From Megasphaera sp. NM10 (GTDB lineage Bacteria; Bacillota; Negativicutes; Veillonellales; Megasphaeraceae), in assembly GCF_000417505.1 (NCBI RefSeq), contig NZ_APHY01000077.1, positions 1 to 53,843 of the forward strand: a stretch of 53,843 nucleotides of DNA. Reading direction: 5' to 3'. The notes beneath the pieces were generated by a model. The model ran no database searches and was not told where the DNA came from. It saw nothing but the letters and a program-made list of their open reading frames with translations. A program made the position numbers and the translations under genes. Below, in pieces: positions 466-9,962 of this stretch. Position 1 is the stretch's first letter; each line of letters opens with the position of its first letter.

Positions 466-503
466 AAAAAGAGAGGCTGTCGCATCGGCGACAGCCTCTC
501 TTT
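466..503 (-). terminator. Intrinsic terminator of the acrylate operon
   Basis: A perfect 13-bp stem (471-483 with 488-500, loop ATCG) is flanked by an A run on the left and TTT on the right. Read on the minus strand it ends in five U residues, so it terminates the acyl-CoA dehydrogenase transcript about 85 bases after its stop. It may also work weakly on panE. The loop-proximal GTCGC/GCGAC recurs in other terminators of the window. Confidence 0.85.
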
Positions 504-586: not shown

Positions 587-1735
587 CTATCTGAGGATGG
601 CGCCAGAGATAACCATCTGCTGTACCTGGTTGGTGCCTTCGTAGATCTGAGTGATCTTAGCATCGCGCATGTAGCGTTCAACCGGATATTCGCGAGTGAA
701 GCCATAGCCGCCGAATACCTGGACAGCATCGGTGGTGACCTGCATAGCTACGTCAGAAGCATATTTCTTAGCGATAGCTGCATCTACGGAGTAGGATTTA
801 ACGTCAGGCTGAGCCATTTTCCAAGCTGCTTTGTAGACAGCGAGGCGAGCCGTTTCGATTTTGAGTTTCATGTCAGCGAGCATGAAGCTGATAGCCTGGA
901 ATTTAGCGATCGGTTTGCCGAACTGTGTACGTTCTTTAGCATACTGAACAGCTGCATTGTAAGCACCTTCAGCAATGCCGAGAGCCTGTGCGCCAACGCC
1001 AACACGGCCGCCGTCGAGGGTCATCATAGCGATCTTGAAGCCTTCGCCTTCTTTGCCGAGGAGGTTTTCAGCCGGAACTTTTACGTTCTGGAATACGAGT
1101 TCACGCTGTACGGAAGCGCGGATACCCATTTTAACTTCTTTTTTGCCATAGGTAAAGCCTTCCATGCCTTTTTCGAGGATGAAAGCGCTCATGCCTTTAG
1201 CGCCTTTGGATTTGTCCGTGGAAGCGAATACGACAGTAACGTCAGCTTCGCCGCCGTTGGTGTTGAAGACTTTGGAGCCGTTCAAGGTGTAGCTGCCATC
1301 TTCGTTTTTCGTAGCGACTGTGGAGCCGTTCAAAGCGTCGGTACCAGCATTCGGTTCGGTGAGGCCGAAAGCGCCGAGTTTTGTGCCTTCTGCGAGGGGT
1401 TTGAGGAATTTAGCTTTCTGTTCAGCTGTGCCAAATTTCCAGATCGGCCAGGAGCAGAGCATAGTGTGTACTTCAAAGCTGAGTGCGATGGAGGGGTCAA
1501 CTTTAGCTACTTCTTCGCAAGCAACTGCGAGGCTGAGGAAGTCAGCACCTACGCCGCCGTTTTCTTCTTCCCAAGGAATACCGAGAAGGCCGAGAGTACC
1601 CATTTCGTCGAGGATAGCGCGGTCAAAGACTTCTTTTTCGTCGCGATCTTTGACAGTGGGAGCTAATTTTTTTTCTGCAAAATCTTTTGCGAGATTTGCG
1701 ATATCTTGCTGTAATTCAGAAAGTTTGAATTCCAT
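587..1735 (-). CDS. Acyl-CoA dehydrogenase (acryloyl-/butyryl-CoA reductase type)
   Basis: A 382-residue FAD acyl-CoA dehydrogenase of the short-chain (butyryl-CoA) type. The catalytic glutamate is E366 in QIYEGTNQVQ near the C-terminus, and the flavin/substrate segment GAFGLTEPNAGTDA is present. The start chosen is the ATG of MEFKLSEL, 8 bases after TAGGAGGAA; a longer frame reaching 1843 has no such site. As last gene of the acrylate cluster it probably reduces acryloyl-CoA to propionyl-CoA with electrons from an electron-transfer flavoprotein. It resembles, but as I recall is not identical to, the crystallised M. elsdenii butyryl-CoA dehydrogenase, so a butyryl-CoA role remains possible. 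A 200-base gap with two hairpins separates it from lcdB. Confidence 0.88.
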   Translation of the reverse strand: MEFKLSELQQDIANLAKDFAEKKLAPTVKDRDEKEVFDRAILDEMGTLGLLGIPWEEENGGVGADFLSLAVACEEVAKVDPSIALSFEVHTMLCSWPIWKFGTAEQKAKFLKPLAEGTKLGAFGLTEPNAGTDALNGSTVATKNEDGSYTLNGSKVFNTNGGEADVTVVFASTDKSKGAKGMSAFILEKGMEGFTYGKKEVKMGIRASVQRELVFQNVKVPAENLLGKEGEGFKIAMMTLDGGRVGVGAQALGIAEGAYNAAVQYAKERTQFGKPIAKFQAISFMLADMKLKIETARLAVYKAAWKMAQPDVKSYSVDAAIAKKYASDVAMQVTTDAVQVFGGYGFTREYPVERYMRDAKITQIYEGTNQVQQMVISGAILR

Positions 1736-1933: not shown

Positions 1934-3052
1934 TTAGAGAATTTCCGAGAAAGCCTGGATACGGGTGCGGAGCTGTTCGAGCGACGGAGATTCGATGTCG
2001 AGGTCGAGGACGGTGTAACGGACACCGGCTGCTTCGAATTCCGGTTTGTAAATCGGATAGTCGAATTCTTCCGGATCGCAGAAGCGCATCATGCAGATGA
2101 CGACAGCGTCAGCATTGTATTTCTTGGTCATGTCGATGAGCATCTGGCCACGCGGTTTGTCTTCGTTCAAAGCGAGCGGGCAGCCATCGAAGTCCTGCCA
2201 CTGCTGAGCGAGCTGTTCGAGGGGATCGATGCCGGACGGTACGTCTGTACGGAACTGGCGGGATTCCTGAGCGAGGTCGTCAGCGACGACAGCGATGTTG
2301 AATTCGCTGAAGATGTCGAGGAATTCATCCGGTTCTGCCATGATACCGGAGAGGATGACTTTTTTGCCATTCCACGGCTGTACCGGTTCTTTCTTGACAG
2401 CGTCGATAAGTTCGCGGACCAAAGCGGTGTGTTCAGCTTTGTCCATGAACCAGCGGGCTTTGATGACGTCATGGCGTTTGACCGGAGTGAAGATCTGCGG
2501 GTACTGAGCAGCTACGTCGCAGAATTCACGCATAACCTGACGGTTTTCGTTGTATACTTTGATAGCTTCCTGGATAGCCAGGTCGGAGATTTTTACGTTG
2601 AGGATACGTTCCAATTCAGTGCGGACATGTTCGTATTCAGCTTTGAGGAAGTCGACAGCCGGGCGGATCTTACGGTTCTGGGGCTGTGTGAAGACGATGA
2701 CCGGAGCTTTGCCGTGCCATTTCTGGCTCATGCAGCGGAGGGTATCGCAGGGAACGGAGAAGATGACAGCGTCGAGGCAGTCATACGTGCCGTTGAGCTG
2801 GAGTTCCATGTCAGCCTGCATCAAGGAACAAGCGAACGGAGGAAGGTATGTACGAGCTGCGGAAATCTGCGGGTTCTGGGAACCGAACATGCCTACCGGG
2901 AGATAGCCTGCAGCGTATACGATTTCTTCCGGAGCGTAGTAAGGCATCATGCCTACGAGGCCTTTGCCCTGTTTTTTATAATTCAAAACCGTCTTCTGGG
3001 GATGGTTGGATACTTCCTGTAATTTGCTGATAAGTTCGTCGATCTGACTCAT
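1934..3052 (-). CDS. lcdB: Lactoyl-CoA dehydratase, beta subunit
   Basis: A 372-residue protein of the 2-hydroxyacyl-CoA dehydratase D-component family (HgdB/BcrB/LcdB). With LcdA it forms the oxygen-sensitive iron-sulfur dehydratase that removes water from (R)-lactoyl-CoA to give acryloyl-CoA by a ketyl-radical mechanism. Family features are the early GLVGMMPYYAPEEIVYAAG segment, the cysteine in FACSLMQ, and the late block AVVICMMRFCDPEEFDYP. Its ATG overlaps the lcdA stop as TAATG, so the two subunits are translationally coupled. A cytosolic enzyme. Substrate is inferred from the neighbours (pct, activator), since 2-hydroxyglutaryl-CoA enzymes look alike. Confidence 0.9.
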   Translation of the reverse strand: MSQIDELISKLQEVSNHPQKTVLNYKKQGKGLVGMMPYYAPEEIVYAAGYLPVGMFGSQNPQISAARTYLPPFACSLMQADMELQLNGTYDCLDAVIFSVPCDTLRCMSQKWHGKAPVIVFTQPQNRKIRPAVDFLKAEYEHVRTELERILNVKISDLAIQEAIKVYNENRQVMREFCDVAAQYPQIFTPVKRHDVIKARWFMDKAEHTALVRELIDAVKKEPVQPWNGKKVILSGIMAEPDEFLDIFSEFNIAVVADDLAQESRQFRTDVPSGIDPLEQLAQQWQDFDGCPLALNEDKPRGQMLIDMTKKYNADAVVICMMRFCDPEEFDYPIYKPEFEAAGVRYTVLDLDIESPSLEQLRTRIQAFSEIL

Positions 3053-4338
3053 TAGTGGTTTCCTCCTTCATTGGCTTTTTTGTCTGCCATCATTTCTGCC
3101 AAAGCTTCTACACGGGTATCGAACTGTGCTTCCGAGAAGTTACGAGCATCGGTCTGGTCGCCGTCGAAAATGACATACGGTACGCCGAGGTTCTTCTGGA
3201 CTCGCTGGCCACCTTCGTTGTTGAGAAGGCTCATGTTCTTGCAGGAACGGTTCTGATGCATGATCAAGCCGTCGCATTTGCCGTCGCGGACAACTTTTTC
3301 AAGAACAGCGCCGCGCTGTTCGAGGCAGCAGTTGATGTATGTACGGGAATAAGCTTCTGCCATGGATTCGAGGTCGCCCGGTTCGTAGGAAACGTCCCAC
3401 ATGCCAGGATAAGCGGAACCAGTCATGAGAGCGCCCTGACCTTTGAGTTCTTTGAAGGTGTGGCCGAGAGCGATCCAGACAGCGATACCTTCCCAGGTAA
3501 CACGGGATTTTTCGTTTTCACCGAAAGCCCATTTCTTATTAGCTACTTTTTCGTCCAATTCTTTGAGGAATTTGTTGAACGTGATTTCCGAGTAGTTCAA
3601 GGAGCGGGCAGCAACGGCGAGGCCCATGTAGTTGAAGAGGTCGAAGCCGTTGAGCGGCGACGGTTTGTACTGGAAGTACGTAGCGATTTTGTTCCAGGCA
3701 GCGATGGAGCGCTGTGTCTGTTTCTGTACTTCGAAGAATTTGTCATAGTCGAAGGGACGGCCGCAGAGGTCTTCGAGCTGTTTGATAGCGTGTTTGAATT
3801 CGCCGACGATGTACTGTTTAGCATGTTTCGTAACAGGGAATTCATGGTTGAACGGTACGTCGATGTTGATGAGAGGTACGTTCAATTCTTTAGCCAAGTT
3901 TTCATACCATTTGAGCAAGGTATTGCAGATGTTGTTGCAAGTGAGGACAACATCCGGAAGGGGAATCGGAGAAGCCGGGGAGTTTTTGAGGACTTCCGGC
4001 GTTTCGCCTGTCAGAGCCTGCTGTTTGAGGAGTTCCATGTAGCCCATGTTGACGCGGCAGTAGGAACAGATGTCCTGGTTGTAACCTTTGTTTTCAGCAA
4101 CTTCGAGCATGGCCGGAGCACCGTGACGGGCACCGATACCAGCTGCGTGAGTTTCCGGATAGACGATGGCGATGTCCATAGCCGTGCAGAATTCCGGAGG
4201 AGCGACAGAAGCGGACCAGCAAACGAGGCGGCCTTCTTTTTTCGCTTTACGTGCGTCTTCATCGACTTTCGGCAAGAAGTAACCAAGGGCTTCCTTGGAG
4301 CTCATGCTTTCAATATCTACTGTTTTTTCTTCACTCAT
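3052..4338 (-). CDS. lcdA: Lactoyl-CoA dehydratase, alpha subunit
   Basis: A 428-residue HgdA-type subunit. Cysteines at about residues 40, 51, 91, 94, 134 and 138 include the candidate [4Fe-4S] ligands; CSYCRVN and VVLTCNNICNTL are recognisable family blocks. It pairs with LcdB and is reduced by the ATP-driven activator LcdC encoded just upstream. The ATG lies after AAGGAGAG. Order here is activator first, then A and B, with a 21-base gap after lcdC and a 1-base overlap with lcdB, so all are one transcript. The long open frame on the opposite strand is a codon-bias shadow. Confidence 0.9.
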   Translation of the reverse strand: MSEEKTVDIESMSSKEALGYFLPKVDEDARKAKKEGRLVCWSASVAPPEFCTAMDIAIVYPETHAAGIGARHGAPAMLEVAENKGYNQDICSYCRVNMGYMELLKQQALTGETPEVLKNSPASPIPLPDVVLTCNNICNTLLKWYENLAKELNVPLINIDVPFNHEFPVTKHAKQYIVGEFKHAIKQLEDLCGRPFDYDKFFEVQKQTQRSIAAWNKIATYFQYKPSPLNGFDLFNYMGLAVAARSLNYSEITFNKFLKELDEKVANKKWAFGENEKSRVTWEGIAVWIALGHTFKELKGQGALMTGSAYPGMWDVSYEPGDLESMAEAYSRTYINCCLEQRGAVLEKVVRDGKCDGLIMHQNRSCKNMSLLNNEGGQRVQKNLGVPYVIFDGDQTDARNFSEAQFDTRVEALAEMMADKKANEGGNH

Positions 4339-4359: not shown

Positions 4360-5145
4360 TTATTTCTTGATTTTATCATAAGCAATCAAAGCAGCTCCGA
4401 GAGCACCCACCGCTTGGGGATGCAGAGCGACTCTGACAGGAATACCTAATTCTTTCGATACGGCATCGACGACGCCGGGATCGCGGGAGCCACCGCCGGT
4501 CATGGTCAGGTCTTCACCGACACCGACGCGGCGCACGAGAGCGCAGGCTTTGGCGGCGATGGACTGATGGACACCGGCTACGATATCTTCTTTCGGGACA
4601 TTCTTGGAAAGAAGGGAAATGACTTCCGATTCAGCAAAAACCGTGCAGGTACTGCTGACGGCAGCGGGATGCTTCGATTTGAAGTACCAGTCCCCCATTT
4701 CAGACATGGGGATTTCCAGTACCTTCGACATGACGTCGAGGAAACGGCCCGTACCAGCGGCGCATTTGTCGTTCATGGCAAACTGCATGACCAGGCCCTG
4801 GCCATTCAATTTGATGGACTTGACGTCCTGACCGCCGATATCGAGGATGGTCGTCGTACCGGGGCATTCAAAGAGGGCCCCTTTGGCATGGCACGTGATT
4901 TCGCTGACTTCGCCTTTGGCGCAGTCGACATTGAAACGGCCATAGCCTGTGGCGATGATGTTCGCCATGTCTTCAATTTTTAAGTTGGTATCTTTGAAGA
5001 CTTCGTCCAAAACGCGTTCCGGACCGGTCGAACCGGTGCCGATTTCAACGACGGCATGGGCGACGATCTTCTTGCCATCTTCCAGGATGACTGCCTTGGA
5101 AGAAGAAGAACCAACGTCGATTCCGAGAGTATACACAGTTTTCAC
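4360..5145 (-). CDS. lcdC: Dehydratase activator ATPase (BadF/BcrA family)
   Basis: A 261-residue ASKHA-fold ATPase that injects one electron into the dehydratase at the cost of ATP. Visible motifs: GIDVGSSSSKAVIL phosphate-binding loop at residues 8-21, DIGGQDVKSI at about 102-111, and two cysteines, C128 (NDKCAAGTGR) and C167 (SSTCTVFAESE), which in homologues bridge a single [4Fe-4S] cluster across the homodimer. The start is unusual: GTG at 5145, with a second GTG three codons later (5136) better spaced from AAAGGTG; homologues begin near the second. It lies between the VOC gene and lcdA. Confidence 0.9.
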   Translation of the reverse strand: MKTVYTLGIDVGSSSSKAVILEDGKKIVAHAVVEIGTGSTGPERVLDEVFKDTNLKIEDMANIIATGYGRFNVDCAKGEVSEITCHAKGALFECPGTTTILDIGGQDVKSIKLNGQGLVMQFAMNDKCAAGTGRFLDVMSKVLEIPMSEMGDWYFKSKHPAAVSSTCTVFAESEVISLLSKNVPKEDIVAGVHQSIAAKACALVRRVGVGEDLTMTGGGSRDPGVVDAVSKELGIPVRVALHPQAVGALGAALIAYDKIKK

Positions 5146-5161: not shown

Positions 5162-6076
5162 TCAATCATTAAAAGGGTTGGGATTGCTGCGATTGATGGG
5201 AGCTACGGTCTGGACATATTCGACGAGGATGCCGGCGTCCGTGCTGGGACGGCGGAAGTTGACGATGATATCGTCCGTTCCCCGGACGGCTTTCTTTTCG
5301 AGCATGCAACCAGGCTTCTGGCTTTCCATAATCTGACGTACCTTTTCGACATCATCCACTTCAAAGGCGATATGAGCGATACCTCCCCTGCCATGATTGA
5401 AATCTTTGAGGACCCCTTCACGGGGAATAATGAATTCGATAGGCGTACTGTTTTCACCTTTTTTAGTGAAAATGAGATCCGCATGGTAGGCGTCGACGAA
5501 ACCGGAATAATCCACTTCCAGACCATTGGTCTTGATGAATTCATGGGCCTTTTCCAAGGTCGGCAAGACGATGCCGATATGGTGCAGGCGCATGGGATGC
5601 CATGTTTCGTTGAGCTTCCCTTTTTCCGGGCCGAGATTCTTAACGAAAGGATTTTCGCCGCGGCCGGTGATAGGTGCTGTCGTCTGAACATATTCAACGA
5701 GGATACCCTGGTTGGTTGTCGGGCGGCGGAAGTTGACGATAATGTCGTCCGTACCCTGGACAGCTTTCTTTTCTAACATGCATCCCGGACAATCTGCTTC
5801 CATTTCCTGGCGGACAGCTTCGACATCGTCCACTTCGAAGGCGATGTGGGCAATGCCGCCGCGGCCACCATTGAATTGGGTAAGCACACCGGAGTGCGGG
5901 ATAATCATTTCAATCGGGCTGGCAAATTCACCAAACTTAGTGAAAATGAGATCAGCCTGGTAAGCATCGACATAGCCGGCATAGTCGATTTCAAGTCCAT
6001 TATTCTGCATGAATTCATGGGCTTTTTCTAAGGTCGGCAGGACAATGCCTACGTGGTGGAGTCGCATAGGTTTCAT
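5162..6076 (-). CDS. Tandem VOC (glyoxalase/methylmalonyl-CoA epimerase-like) protein
   Basis: A 304-residue protein made of two near-identical VOC modules, residues 1-146 and 159-304, offset by 158. Each module keeps the four metal ligands expected for methylmalonyl-CoA epimerases: H8, E56, H77, E128 and H166, E214, H235, E286. Most family members are single ~135-150 residue chains that dimerise, so this is an in-frame duplication. The ATG overlaps the pct stop as ATGA, placing it inside the acrylate operon. Function is not established; a CoA-thioester alpha-carbon epimerase or isomerase acting on lactoyl-CoA would fit the setting, methylmalonyl-CoA epimerase is the default annotation. A start at Met4 is also possible. 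Confidence 0.8.
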   Translation of the reverse strand: MKPMRLHHVGIVLPTLEKAHEFMQNNGLEIDYAGYVDAYQADLIFTKFGEFASPIEMIIPHSGVLTQFNGGRGGIAHIAFEVDDVEAVRQEMEADCPGCMLEKKAVQGTDDIIVNFRRPTTNQGILVEYVQTTAPITGRGENPFVKNLGPEKGKLNETWHPMRLHHIGIVLPTLEKAHEFIKTNGLEVDYSGFVDAYHADLIFTKKGENSTPIEFIIPREGVLKDFNHGRGGIAHIAFEVDDVEKVRQIMESQKPGCMLEKKAVRGTDDIIVNFRRPSTDAGILVEYVQTVAPINRSNPNPFND

Positions 6077-7626
6077 TTTTTCAACCCCATCGGGCCGTCC
6101 TGGAAGAGGCGGGCATCCATGAGTTTCGGATTATCAATGATCGGCTTGAAGTCCATGTGAGCGAGGATATCTTTTTCAATATCGATGCCCGGTGCGACTT
6201 CGATGAGTTTCAAGCCTTCTTTGGTCAGTTCAAATACGCAGCGTTCCGTGATGTAGAGAACGTGTTTGCCGTTGCGGGCTGCATAGGAACCGTTGAAAGT
6301 GATCTGGTCGACAGCTTTGATGAACTTCTTGGCTTTGCCTTCCTGGAGGATCTTGACTTTGCCGTCTTCGACAGCGATTTTCAAGCCGCCAGCCGTGAAG
6401 GTGCCGCAGAAGTAAACATTCGGTGTCTGCTGGGAAATGTTCGGGAAACCGCCGCAGCCGGCAACGTTAGTACCGAACTTGCTGACGTTGATGTTGCCCG
6501 AGCCATCGCACTGGGCCAGGCCGAGGTAAGCGATGTCCAGACCGCCGCCATCGTAGAAGTCGAACTGATAGGTGTGGTCGATGATGGCATCGGCATTGCG
6601 GGACGAACCGAAGCGGGCACCGCCCTGCGGTACGCCACCGATGGCGCCGCCTTCGACGGTCAGGGTAATGGTATCGGCGATACCTTCTTCACCGGCAACA
6701 GAAGCAACGTATTCCGGAGCACCGACGCCGAGGTTGACGACAGCGTTTTCAGTCAATTCCAAAGCGCCGCGGCGGCCGATGATTTTCTTAGCGCTCATGG
6801 GGAGAGCTGCATCGGCAGCGCCTTCGGGAGCACGATGTTCGCCGCTGAGGGACGGATCGTATTCGCAGTCATACGTCTGCTGATGGTCTTCCGGAGCTGC
6901 TACGACGACGTAGTCGACATAGATGCCGGGGATCTTGACCATGCGCGGGTCGAGGCTGCCGTGAGCGACGACGTCTTTGACCTGGACGACGACTTTACCG
7001 CCACAGTTGTGAACGGCCTGGGCGACGGAAGTGCTTTCGAAAGGCCCGATTTCTTCATCCATGGTGATGTTGCCCGATTCATCGGCATAAGTGCCGCGGA
7101 GGAAAGCTACGTTGACCGGGAAGGTCGGATAGAAAAGCTGTTCGTGACCGTCGACTTCGATCAATTTGACCAAGTCTTCTTTGGTTACGTCATTGAGCTT
7201 GCCGCCGAGCTGACGGGGATCGAGGAAAGTTTCCAAACCGATATCCGTGAAGACGCCGAGTTTGTGGCCTGCCAAAGCGCGGAACCAATGAACCAGCGTG
7301 CCCTGCGAGAAGTTGTATGCTTCGATTTTGTTTTCAACAGCCAGTTTACCGATAGCCGGTACTGTCTGCCAGTGACCGATGATGGCGCGTTTCAAAAGAC
7401 CTGTGTGTGCCAGGTGTTCTGCAGCACGGCCATCGCGTTTACCCTGGGAACCTGCGTAGATGTAAGTCAGGTTCTGCGGCGTGTTCGTATCCAAGAACCG
7501 TTTTTCCAAGGCTTTGGTCAGGGCTTCCGGATGGGCACTGCTGACAAAACCAATAGACGTAATCGTGTCGTTGTCTTTTACGAGCTGAGCTGCTTGTTCA
7601 GCTGTAATGATTTCTACTTTTCTCAT
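6073..7626 (-). CDS. pct: Propionate CoA-transferase
   Basis: A 517-residue family I CoA-transferase with alpha and beta halves fused. The catalytic glutamate is E325 in TLTVEGGAIGGVPQGG; the oxyanion segment GVGAPEYV lies shortly before. From memory the chain is nearly the same as the well-known M. elsdenii Pct. It moves CoA from propionyl-CoA or acetyl-CoA to lactate, supplying lactoyl-CoA to LcdAB and releasing propionate. First gene of the operon, with AGGAGG 11 bases before the ATG and a promoter at 7726-7754. The stop overlaps the VOC start by four bases. Confidence 0.96.
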   Translation of the reverse strand: MRKVEIITAEQAAQLVKDNDTITSIGFVSSAHPEALTKALEKRFLDTNTPQNLTYIYAGSQGKRDGRAAEHLAHTGLLKRAIIGHWQTVPAIGKLAVENKIEAYNFSQGTLVHWFRALAGHKLGVFTDIGLETFLDPRQLGGKLNDVTKEDLVKLIEVDGHEQLFYPTFPVNVAFLRGTYADESGNITMDEEIGPFESTSVAQAVHNCGGKVVVQVKDVVAHGSLDPRMVKIPGIYVDYVVVAAPEDHQQTYDCEYDPSLSGEHRAPEGAADAALPMSAKKIIGRRGALELTENAVVNLGVGAPEYVASVAGEEGIADTITLTVEGGAIGGVPQGGARFGSSRNADAIIDHTYQFDFYDGGGLDIAYLGLAQCDGSGNINVSKFGTNVAGCGGFPNISQQTPNVYFCGTFTAGGLKIAVEDGKVKILQEGKAKKFIKAVDQITFNGSYAARNGKHVLYITERCVFELTKEGLKLIEVAPGIDIEKDILAHMDFKPIIDNPKLMDARLFQDGPMGLKK

Positions 7627-7725: not shown

Positions 7726-7754
7726 ATGATATCATGGAAAACCCATAACGTCAA
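7726..7754 (-). promoter_or_regulatory. Promoter of the pct-lcd operon
   Basis: On the minus strand TTGACG (7749-7754), a 17-base spacer and TATCAT (7726-7731) make a good sigma-70 site. It predicts a start near 7719 and a 5' leader of about 95 bases before pct. Confidence 0.7.
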
Positions 7755-8441: not shown

Positions 8442-9962
8442 CTACCCTACCAGGACCTGTCCGAAGTAGACGATGGCCCCTAAGAGGATGATATATGGTA
8501 CATAGACTTTCATGATTGCCTGAAGGATTTCGTTATCCTTGCCGGTCAGGGAGATGGCCCCGACGGCGATGGCGATACTCTGCGGCGAAATCATCTTGCC
8601 TGCGCAGGTACCGGCCGCGTTGGCAGCAGCCAGCCAGGCTTTATTGGCGTTGATGGCGGCAGCGGCATCGGTCTGGAGGTTGCCGAAGAGGACGTTACTG
8701 GACGTACCGGAACCGGTGATGAACGTGCCGACAGAGCCGATGAGCGGTGCAATGGCCGGATACATCATGCCCGTCGCTTCGACAGCCGTGCGGGCGATAT
8801 CTGACGTCATGCCGCTGTAGCCCATGACTTTAGCTGTAGCGATGACGGCGATGATGGTGATGATCGTATTGCGCAGGCCTTTGATGGTGTTCAGCAAGAC
8901 GAAGAACATTTCGCTAAAACGGGCCGACTGGGCCTTACCACTGATGAAGGCTGCCAGGAGGATGAGGATGCCCGGCGTATTGACCCAGATGAAGGTATAA
9001 GGTACGCCGCCCTGACCGGTATAGATGAGGACCGACGATTTAATAGCCATGAGCGGTGCATGGATGAAGGGAACGAGTTTCGACGTCAGCAATAAGAAGA
9101 CGAAGATCAAGATGAAGGGCAGGCAAGCCAGCAGACCACCGCGGAGCGGTACGTGAGCCGGATTGATGTCCATGGCATATTCCGGATCGTCGATAGGACG
9201 GAAATGGGAATAAACGACGATGAGGGCCATGATGACGATAGAAGCCCCCATGACAGCCAGTTCCGGACCGACGAAGGCCGAGACGATGAGTTCCGGCACA
9301 GCCAGGCCCAGGGCCGAGAGCAGGGTAACCATGAAAACGCCTTTGAGGGCCTTCAGCGAGCCGCCGACGATGGCGACGATGATGAACGGGCAAAGGATGT
9401 TGAGCGGCAGGAGCTGCAAGCTAATATACGTCGACAGCTGGACCGGATCGAGGCCCGTCAAGTTAGCCAGGGTGCTGGCAGGGATACCGATGGAACCATA
9501 CGTTGTCGGAACGGAGTTAGCAACCAGGCAGACCAGGATAGCCTTGATGGGGTCGAAGCCCAGGGCAACCAGCATCGACGCCGGGATAGCGATAGCCGTA
9601 CCGAAGCCGGCCATGCCTTCCATGAAGGCGCCGAAACCCCAGCCGATGAGCAGGGCCAGGACGCGGCGGTCCTTGCTGACCGTCGTCAGCATGTGCTTGA
9701 CGATATCCATGCTCTTGGTGTACAAGGTCAGATTATACGTAAAGATAGCGGCGATGATGACCAGTAAAATAGGCCAGCATGCCAGGGCCACGCCTTCCAG
9801 GGCTGCCGTAGCGGCATCCATGCCCGGCATATGATACCAGGCCAGGGCGACGGCAAAAGAAATGATCAAGGCAATGGGACATGCCTTGAAGCTCTGCATC
9901 TTCAGGAAGCCCAAAGAAACGATGAGCCACAAAATAGGTGACAATGCCAATAAAAATACCAT
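8442..9962 (-). CDS. lldP: L-lactate permease (LctP family)
   Basis: A 506-residue, very hydrophobic inner-membrane carrier of the LctP family, which imports lactate (or glycolate) with protons. Family blocks include GWGFGAFMEGMAGFGTAIAIPAS and the late TGSGTSSNVLFGNLQ and GKMISPQSIAIA. Its position directly upstream of the lactate-to-propionate operon, on the same strand, fits uptake of the substrate. It has its own promoter and terminator. The Shine-Dalgarno before ATG is weak (AGAGGG). Substrate preference within the family cannot be read from sequence. Confidence 0.92.
   Translation of the reverse strand: MVFLLALSPILWLIVSLGFLKMQSFKACPIALIISFAVALAWYHMPGMDAATAALEGVALACWPILLVIIAAIFTYNLTLYTKSMDIVKHMLTTVSKDRRVLALLIGWGFGAFMEGMAGFGTAIAIPASMLVALGFDPIKAILVCLVANSVPTTYGSIGIPASTLANLTGLDPVQLSTYISLQLLPLNILCPFIIVAIVGGSLKALKGVFMVTLLSALGLAVPELIVSAFVGPELAVMGASIVIMALIVVYSHFRPIDDPEYAMDINPAHVPLRGGLLACLPFILIFVFLLLTSKLVPFIHAPLMAIKSSVLIYTGQGGVPYTFIWVNTPGILILLAAFISGKAQSARFSEMFFVLLNTIKGLRNTIITIIAVIATAKVMGYSGMTSDIARTAVEATGMMYPAIAPLIGSVGTFITGSGTSSNVLFGNLQTDAAAAINANKAWLAAANAAGTCAGKMISPQSIAIAVGAISLTGKDNEILQAIMKVYVPYIILLGAIVYFGQVLVG

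Follow-up and report, generated by a model that had tools for sequence, protein, structure and literature searches.

A fused tandem VOC protein in the acrylate-pathway operon of Megasphaera sp. NM10 is a putative lactoyl-CoA epimerase

The operon and its duplicated VOC gene

We analysed a stretch of 53,843 nucleotides from Megasphaera sp. NM10 (hereafter, the window). On its minus strand, an operon runs in the order pct-lapB-lcdC-lcdA-lcdB-acyl-CoA dehydrogenase, with a gene for a lactate permease upstream (Table 1). The three lcd genes do follow lapB as the preliminary description had read them. The dehydratase subunits LcdA and LcdB score below the curated cut-offs of the models for named 2-hydroxyacyl-CoA dehydratases. 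The start of the acyl-CoA dehydrogenase was set by comparison with three related loci (L050, L055, and L056). The promoter-like site upstream of pct is one of 15 such sites in the region, as compared to 9.2 (standard deviation 3.3) in shuffled sequences.

Table 1. Features of the lapB locus, with positions in the window.
Feature	Position	Strand	Remarks
lapB-type tandem VOC protein, putative 2-hydroxyacyl-CoA (lactoyl-CoA) epimerase	5162..6076	minus	304 aa, ATG start
N-terminal VOC half	5603..6076	minus	ligands H8, E56, H77, E128
C-terminal VOC half	5162..5602	minus	ligands H166, E214, H235, E286; model pLDDT 93
pct, propionate/lactate CoA-transferase	6073..7626	minus	517 aa; TGA overlaps lapB ATG
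lcdC, activator of 2-hydroxyacyl-CoA dehydratase	4360..5145	minus	TIGR00241 above cut-off
lcdA, dehydratase subunit	3052..4338	minus	PF06050
lcdB, dehydratase subunit	1934..3052	minus	PF06050
acyl-CoA dehydrogenase, candidate acryloyl-CoA reductase	587..1735	minus	382 aa; likeness to relatives' genes
lactate permease LctP, upstream of operon	8442..9962	minus	TIGR00795 above cut-off
terminator-like hairpin, 16 pairs, 3' of last operon gene	468..503	minus	consensus match only
promoter-like site upstream of pct	7726..7754	minus	consensus match only

LapB matches the Pfam family Glyoxalase_4 (PF13669) in two stretches (E = 3e-30; 105.1 bits versus a gathering score of 27), and TIGR03081, the model for methylmalonyl-CoA epimerase (MCE), also matches it twice. 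The two halves are identical at 109 of 142 aligned residues. Their alignment score is 572, while 500 shuffles gave a mean of 28.7 (standard deviation 4.6) and a maximum of 49, so the repeat is far beyond chance. We named the metal ligands by alignment with solved methylmalonyl-CoA epimerases. Both halves contain all four, just as was first noticed from the sequence, and these residues are invariant in the eight tandem proteins that we aligned. In a broader alignment of 38 domains (A3; 27 from class 1 and 11 from class 2, as defined below), all 38 keep the four ligands.

The preliminary description also had lapB coupled to pct by an ATGA overlap. The overlap exists in the window: at 6073-6076 (AAAAAATGAAACC), pct stops on the TGA of ATGA. 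It is not conserved. In seven of the eight other tandem genomes (G012 was left out of this comparison), pct ends in TAA, and a spacer that carries a separate ribosome site (GGAG) for lapB comes next; both the spacer and this Shine-Dalgarno sequence are missing from the window genome. The spacer is 20-57 nt in the five relatives where it was counted, and G009 and G013 were read by eye. Even G006, whose LapB protein is identical to the window's and whose gene differs at just 4 of 912 bases, keeps a 26-nt spacer. The overlap thus seems to be private to the window genome. Because these relatives have a spacer instead, we rejected translational coupling as a conserved or defining feature of the system.

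Conservation of lapB with the dehydratase genes

In a survey of the genus that searched 60 genomes, including that of NM10, we found strong matches to lapB in 10. Nine of these are tandem and one (G002) has a single domain, with the gene order pct-lcdC-lapB-lcdA-lcdB. Another 37 of the 60 genomes had weak matches (at most 33% identity); those like L011 are true methylmalonyl-CoA epimerases, as judged by their context. The same 10 genomes, and no others of the 60, contain lcdB (E ≤ 1e-80). Within the genus itself, lapB is present in all 10 genomes with lcdB and in none of the five without it. Three of these five, which lack both genes, are 89% (G003), 83% (G007), and 78% (G008) complete.

Next we built a profile from 13 domains, namely 12 tandem halves and the single-domain protein of G002, and ran it against 84,980 species genomes, which yielded 76 loci. 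Of these, 37 (L057-L093) are close relatives; the other 39 (L094-L132) are no more than 41% identical or match over a short part only, and were set aside. The scan requires one of two short peptide patterns, so the 37 close loci are a sample, and Coprococcus catus is not among them.

We sorted the 37 loci by context into class 1 (25 loci with lactate/acrylate genes) and class 2 (12 loci). In class 1, pct lies within the fetched stretch at 23 loci, and lcdC, lcdA, and lcdB were found at 23 loci as well (some are split or cut by contig ends). The two loci without adjacent lcd genes are L074, which is at a contig end, and L078, whose genome has the lcd genes elsewhere. The bacteria in class 1 include Clostridium homopropionicum, Peptoniphilus, Intestinimonas, C. 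sporosphaeroides, Fusobacteriaceae, and a Desulfovibrio bin. The tandem form occurs at six of the 25 loci, all from Megasphaera or Anaeroglobus. As most of the homologues that we found have a single domain, neither the duplication nor the ATGA overlap is needed for function; the former appears to be specific to a lineage and the latter to one genome.

Across entire genomes, LcdB (E ≤ 1e-30) was found in 20 of 20 class-1 genomes and in 0 of 12 class-2 genomes. (The other five class-1 loci come from Megasphaera or Anaeroglobus and were covered by the genus survey.) The 20 of 20 is partly circular because we originally defined the classes from the context of each locus. The absence of LcdB from the class-2 genomes and its presence elsewhere in the genome of L078 are not circular, and the two classes are also separated by residues and in the tree. 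Loci with a shared operon cannot be counted as independent pieces of evidence. The preliminary description had suggested looking for the gene beside pct and lcd in other organisms with the acrylate pathway, and the 25 named loci have that context: the pairing of lapB with lcd is real and well conserved.

Some of these loci have unusual features. In Anaeroglobus geminatus (L067, 5939-7485 and 9268-10547), pct is broken into three pieces and lcdA into two, but the reading frames of lapB, lcdC, and lcdB are intact; the breaks are frameshifts or assembly errors. In G416 (L152, 9236-15181), there are two consecutive lcdAB sets, and the first lcdA is in pieces. There are also clusters of this type in the Desulfovibrio bin and in Fusobacteriaceae (L075, L069, and L071), which suggest either that the cluster was transferred horizontally or that binning went wrong.

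Fold and active site

An AlphaFold model of the whole 304-residue tandem with eight sequences was poor (pLDDT 48.7), so we draw nothing from it about how the domains are arranged. Instead we used a single-domain model, of the C-terminal half, which was built with 38 domains. Foldseek ranks MCE-type chains at the top for this model. The best match is the enzyme from Streptomyces coelicolor (6xbt; Z = 18.0, rmsd 1.9, 132 aligned residues), and MCEs share the fold, with Z of 15-18 (6wf6 from S. coelicolor, 3rmu from human, and 1jc4 from Propionibacterium shermanii). A nickel-bound clostridial glyoxalase (3hdp) matches with Z = 14.8.

LapB and MCE also have their metal ligands in common: the MCE pattern of His, Gln or Glu, His, and Glu is present in the window protein. 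Nearby residues vary more. In our alignment, Glu43 of the Streptomyces enzyme is replaced by Leu in LapB and Gln60 corresponds to Glu56. Residue 43 is Leu in 26 of the 27 class-1 domains and Ile in the other one. Glu43 and Gln60 occur together in the enzymes from S. coelicolor, P. shermanii, and M. tuberculosis, while those from human (Val43) and Bacillus (Ile43) and L011 (Val43) have a hydrophobic residue at 43 together with Glu at 60. LapB follows the latter pattern among these six enzymes, and since three of them lack Glu43, this residue does not define the MCE family as a whole. Other differences from MCE are a shorter stretch before the second His, an Ala directly before that His, and Asp111, where most of the MCEs compared have Gly. 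Positions 43 and 109 align with positions that were mutated in crystal studies of the Streptomyces enzyme, according to the titles of the structures.

Relatives without dehydratase genes

The 12 class-2 relatives (L080, L082-L091, and L093) have the same metal ligands, and the 11 that were aligned are 47-58% identical to the C-terminal half of the window protein. Eleven of the 12 loci encode a CoA-transferase of the FadX/Pct type (41-45% identical), and genes of the thiolase family are likewise present at 11. The operons of L084, L085, and L090 encode an acyl-CoA ligase, a FadX-like CoA-transferase, a BktB-like thiolase, a 3-hydroxyacyl-CoA dehydrogenase, an SDR reductase, and a transporter of the branched-chain-type ABC or TRAP kind. 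The 27 class-1 domains and the 11 class-2 domains have no residue in common at nine positions. These include G34 (E in class 2), L43 (C), A76 (H), T109 (A), and D111 (G); position 132 differs as well. To judge by their genes, the class-2 operons look as if they serve to take up a short acid with an alpha substituent and to cleave it thiolytically, possibly by an undescribed pathway. Because class 2 shows that a link to lactate is not general in the wider group, we infer, rather than observe, that the class-1 proteins are specific for lactoyl-CoA.

Origin of the tandem

Our tree has 50 rows: 14 halves from the Megasphaera lineage, 21 single domains from class 1 (19 from 18 named loci, as well as G002 and G416), 11 from class 2, and 4 from MCE-like outgroups. 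Alignment A3 omits L059 (the same protein as L061), L068, L093 (whose lapB is split between two frames), repeated Megasphaera records, and three loci that are identical or nearly identical to rows that were used (L002, L003, and L004). To these 38 domains the tree adds L003, L068, L152, and the four outgroup rows; L093 is excluded.

Class 1 and the tandem halves form one clade (support 100/99). The class-2 rows do not form one; they branch off below class 1, their order at the base of class 2 is unsettled, and two of the outgroup branches are long. All 14 tandem halves form a clade (100/99). A single branch (100/94) sets the C-terminal halves apart, and the N-terminal halves group weakly (72/49, and in 74% of bootstrap trees). 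The simplest reading of the tree is that there was a single tandem duplication before these species split, and it appears to have occurred in the Megasphaera/Anaeroglobus lineage. In Clostridium sp. ZS2-4 (L072, 8004-8878), there are two adjacent and separate single-domain lapB genes. This pair looks like a second doubling, without fusion, whose age the tree does not fix.

For both halves, dN/dS by the NG86 method is 0.03-0.05 relative to the two closest species that we compared (M. massiliensis and MJR8396C), and the other finite values are 0.02-0.07, with dS saturated in 5 of 14 comparisons and no usable value from YN00 in 12 of 14. These ratios indicate that both halves are under strong purifying selection. 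As human MCE is a dimer (PMC6525113), the doubling probably fuses, by analogy, what is a homodimer in the single-domain relatives.

Proposed function

LcdAB presumably needs (R)-lactoyl-CoA. Both glyoxalase I and MCE act by a two-glutamate mechanism: glyoxalase I, whose nickel form is known for its His-Glu-His-Glu ligands, makes an alpha-hydroxy thioester through an enediolate, and MCE acts at the alpha carbon of a CoA ester. We propose that LapB is a covalently doubled, metal-dependent VOC enzyme that interconverts (S)- and (R)-lactoyl-CoA, and we consider this to be probably correct. Pct would attach CoA to either isomer of lactate. In each domain of LapB, both of which we expect to be active, the metal would chelate the thioester carbonyl and the alpha-hydroxyl, one ligand glutamate would abstract the alpha proton, leaving an enediolate, and the second glutamate would return it on the opposite face, yielding the other isomer of lactoyl-CoA. 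LcdAB would then dehydrate the (R) isomer to acryloyl-CoA. We suggest this mechanism because LapB has the same ligand set as glyoxalase I, and it is drawn by analogy with that enzyme and with MCE. Against the proposal stand the fact that lactoyl-CoA has no counterpart of the second carboxyl group, which MCE places on its metal (PMC8142540), and the Leu in place of Glu43 of the Streptomyces enzyme, although three of the six MCEs compared also lack this Glu.

That lactoyl-CoA is epimerised was the central suggestion of the preliminary description. It is the best-supported role, given the 25 loci with pct/lcd context and the absence of the partner genes of MCE (see below), but it had already been put forward: in 2022, Sheridan et al. 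described the lapB product of Coprococcus catus GD/7 as a predicted lactoyl-CoA epimerase (PMC8914356), and a later review cites the prediction (PMC11406415). Their prediction rests on induction by lactate (11.8 log2 units, along with the rest of the cluster), on the position of the gene in the cluster, and on its absence from A. propionicum. They also report that C. catus uses both isomers of lactate and that M. elsdenii has a homologue of lapB (PMC8914356). Like the window gene, C. catus lapB is described as an MCE homologue that is flanked by a gene for a propionyl-CoA transferase and by three for lactoyl-CoA dehydratase, in a cluster that includes a lactate permease. (We rely here on the published description of C. 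catus LapB.) The window gene is likewise an MCE-type VOC gene that is linked to pct and lcd, but it is a fused tandem, and neither "tandem" nor "duplicat" occurs in the main text of that article (PMC8914356). In the open-licence literature that we searched, we found no report in which a LapB was assayed with lactoyl-CoA. What we add is the fused variant and the breadth of the support.

Alternative explanations

The closest relatives of LapB in the PDB are MCEs, so LapB might be an MCE that has been placed in a lactate operon and serves a propionate route of the succinate type. Besides the fold and the match of TIGR03081 to both halves, we found no second MCE-like VOC protein in the genome (E ≤ 0.001). 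Nevertheless, we think this is very unlikely. LapB scores 78.9 bits against TIGR03081 and four single-domain relatives score 50.4-70.9, all short of the equivalog cut-off of 114.95, while L011, an MCE from the same order, scores 148.3. L011 adjoins MeaB and a B12-binding protein (by Pfam), and with tblastn we found MeaB and the B12-binding part of the mutase beside all 20 control MCE loci of the order (L011-L030). By the same search these partners were absent from all 25 class-1 loci, from all 12 class-2 loci, and from the 53.8-kb window; the control stretches extend about 1.5 kb to each side, and the other stretches are mostly longer. A76, D111, and L43 of class 1 are not the residues of MCE, either. 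Furthermore, C. catus is reported to lack mmdA (PMC8914356). LapB could instead be a glyoxalase I-like enzyme that detoxifies methylglyoxal with a thiol and is co-expressed with lactate catabolism, as its ligands and the match to 3hdp might suggest. Its score against the glyoxalase I model is far too low (TIGR00068; 32.6 bits versus a cut-off of 120) and its gene is tied to lcd and a CoA-transferase, so we give this hardly any credence.

It is also conceivable, though unlikely, that LapB mainly epimerises some other 2-hydroxyacyl-CoA, such as 2-hydroxybutyryl-CoA or 2-hydroxyisovaleryl-CoA, and that lactoyl-CoA is a minor substrate. As LcdA and LcdB fall below the cut-offs of the named models, sequence does not fix their substrate, and LcdAB in the window and at distant class-1 loci may have other 2-hydroxyacyl-CoAs as substrates. 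Also, class-1 genomes of Peptoniphilus and Fusobacterium have a second dehydratase subunit that is 36-39% identical. However, the window has a lactate permease upstream of the operon, and the C. catus cluster is induced by lactate (PMC8914356), which fits the epimerisation of lactoyl-CoA better.

Dehydratase clusters without lapB

The preliminary description took absence of the gene from other lcd clusters as evidence against an epimerase. In fact lapB is missing from some such clusters, those of seven of the eight Anaerotignum genomes and of G257. The genus of Anaerotignum sp. MB30-C6 has LcdB in all eight genomes (55-57% identity) and lapB in MB30-C6 only; none of the eight has LarA above the cut-off. 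In MB30-C6 itself (L078, 6416-10038), the cluster is pct-lapB-lactate permease and is far from this strain's own lcdCAB-pct cluster (L154), so there are two pct genes. In five genomes (G257, G076, G094, G095, and G093), lcdC, lcdA, lcdB, and pct lie together and lapB is missing at that spot. Across a wider sample of Clostridia, 9 of 391 genomes have lcdB (E ≤ 1e-100), a number too small to support a statistical test. We already knew G070 and G076 among them as lapB genomes; among the other seven, G416 has lapB and six do not. Of these six, only G257 (LcdB at 57% identity) has a close lcd cluster. In the other five, LcdB is 42-47% identical, and these genes may encode other dehydratases.

A. 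propionicum is reported to lack lapB and also to be unable to use L-lactate (PMC8914356, citing a paper from 1985). Given this phenotype, the absence of lapB is consistent with our proposal, not contrary to it, and together with the Anaerotignum clusters that lack lapB it fits the role of an epimerase.

Free lactate racemase

LarA is an unrelated nickel-pincer enzyme that acts on free hydroxy acids. It would serve the same purpose as LapB, which is to equalise the isomers of lactate. The proposal that LapB lets L-lactate enter the pathway without a free lactate racemase is not supported for the window genome, which has five matches to the LarA family (PF09861), four of them above the cut-off, and two pieces of LarC. 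An epimerase is therefore not strictly needed in this organism. The idea does fit some of the relatives: M. hutchinsoni (G010; 99% complete) has lcdB and lapB, and we found no match to PF09861 or to LarC in its genome. Across the class-1 genomes, 12 of 20 have LarA above the cut-off and 8 of 20 have none, although some of these genomes are bins. As 12 genomes carry both genes, we rejected an anti-correlation of lapB and LarA as a rule.

A lactate-induced "lactate racemase" activity has long been reported for M. elsdenii (Hino and Kuroda, as described in papers that cite them). The LarAH10 protein of M. elsdenii was negative in a table from 2020 in which LarA from L. plantarum was positive, and it was later reported to be active on 16 hydroxy acids (PMC7583248, PMC11770544). 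A broader scheme is that Pct and LapB together form a racemase at the level of CoA esters, which replaces LarA in fermenters that lack it and adds to the activity in M. elsdenii, that LapB is one of a larger set of VOC enzymes that epimerise alpha carbons, and that the class-2 members of this set serve an undescribed pathway for alpha-substituted 3-hydroxy- or 3-oxoacyl-CoAs. We offer this scheme as a whole tentatively, and it could well be wrong. The LarA-free candidates are M. hutchinsoni, Peptoniphilus indolicus, Anaerotignum sp. MB30-C6, and Clostridium sporosphaeroides.

Implications

Because the core idea was published in 2022, the value that our analysis adds lies in the wider conservation, the contrast with MCE, the cases without LarA, and class 2. 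If LapB is a lactoyl-CoA epimerase, then it would fill a stereochemical gap in the acrylate pathway and would let L-lactate enter without the synthesis of a nickel cofactor. lapB would then be a genomic marker for propionate producers that can use L-lactate, which would be relevant to rumen acidosis and to lactate in the gut, and LapB might be a biocatalyst for controlling the stereochemistry of lactyl-CoA.
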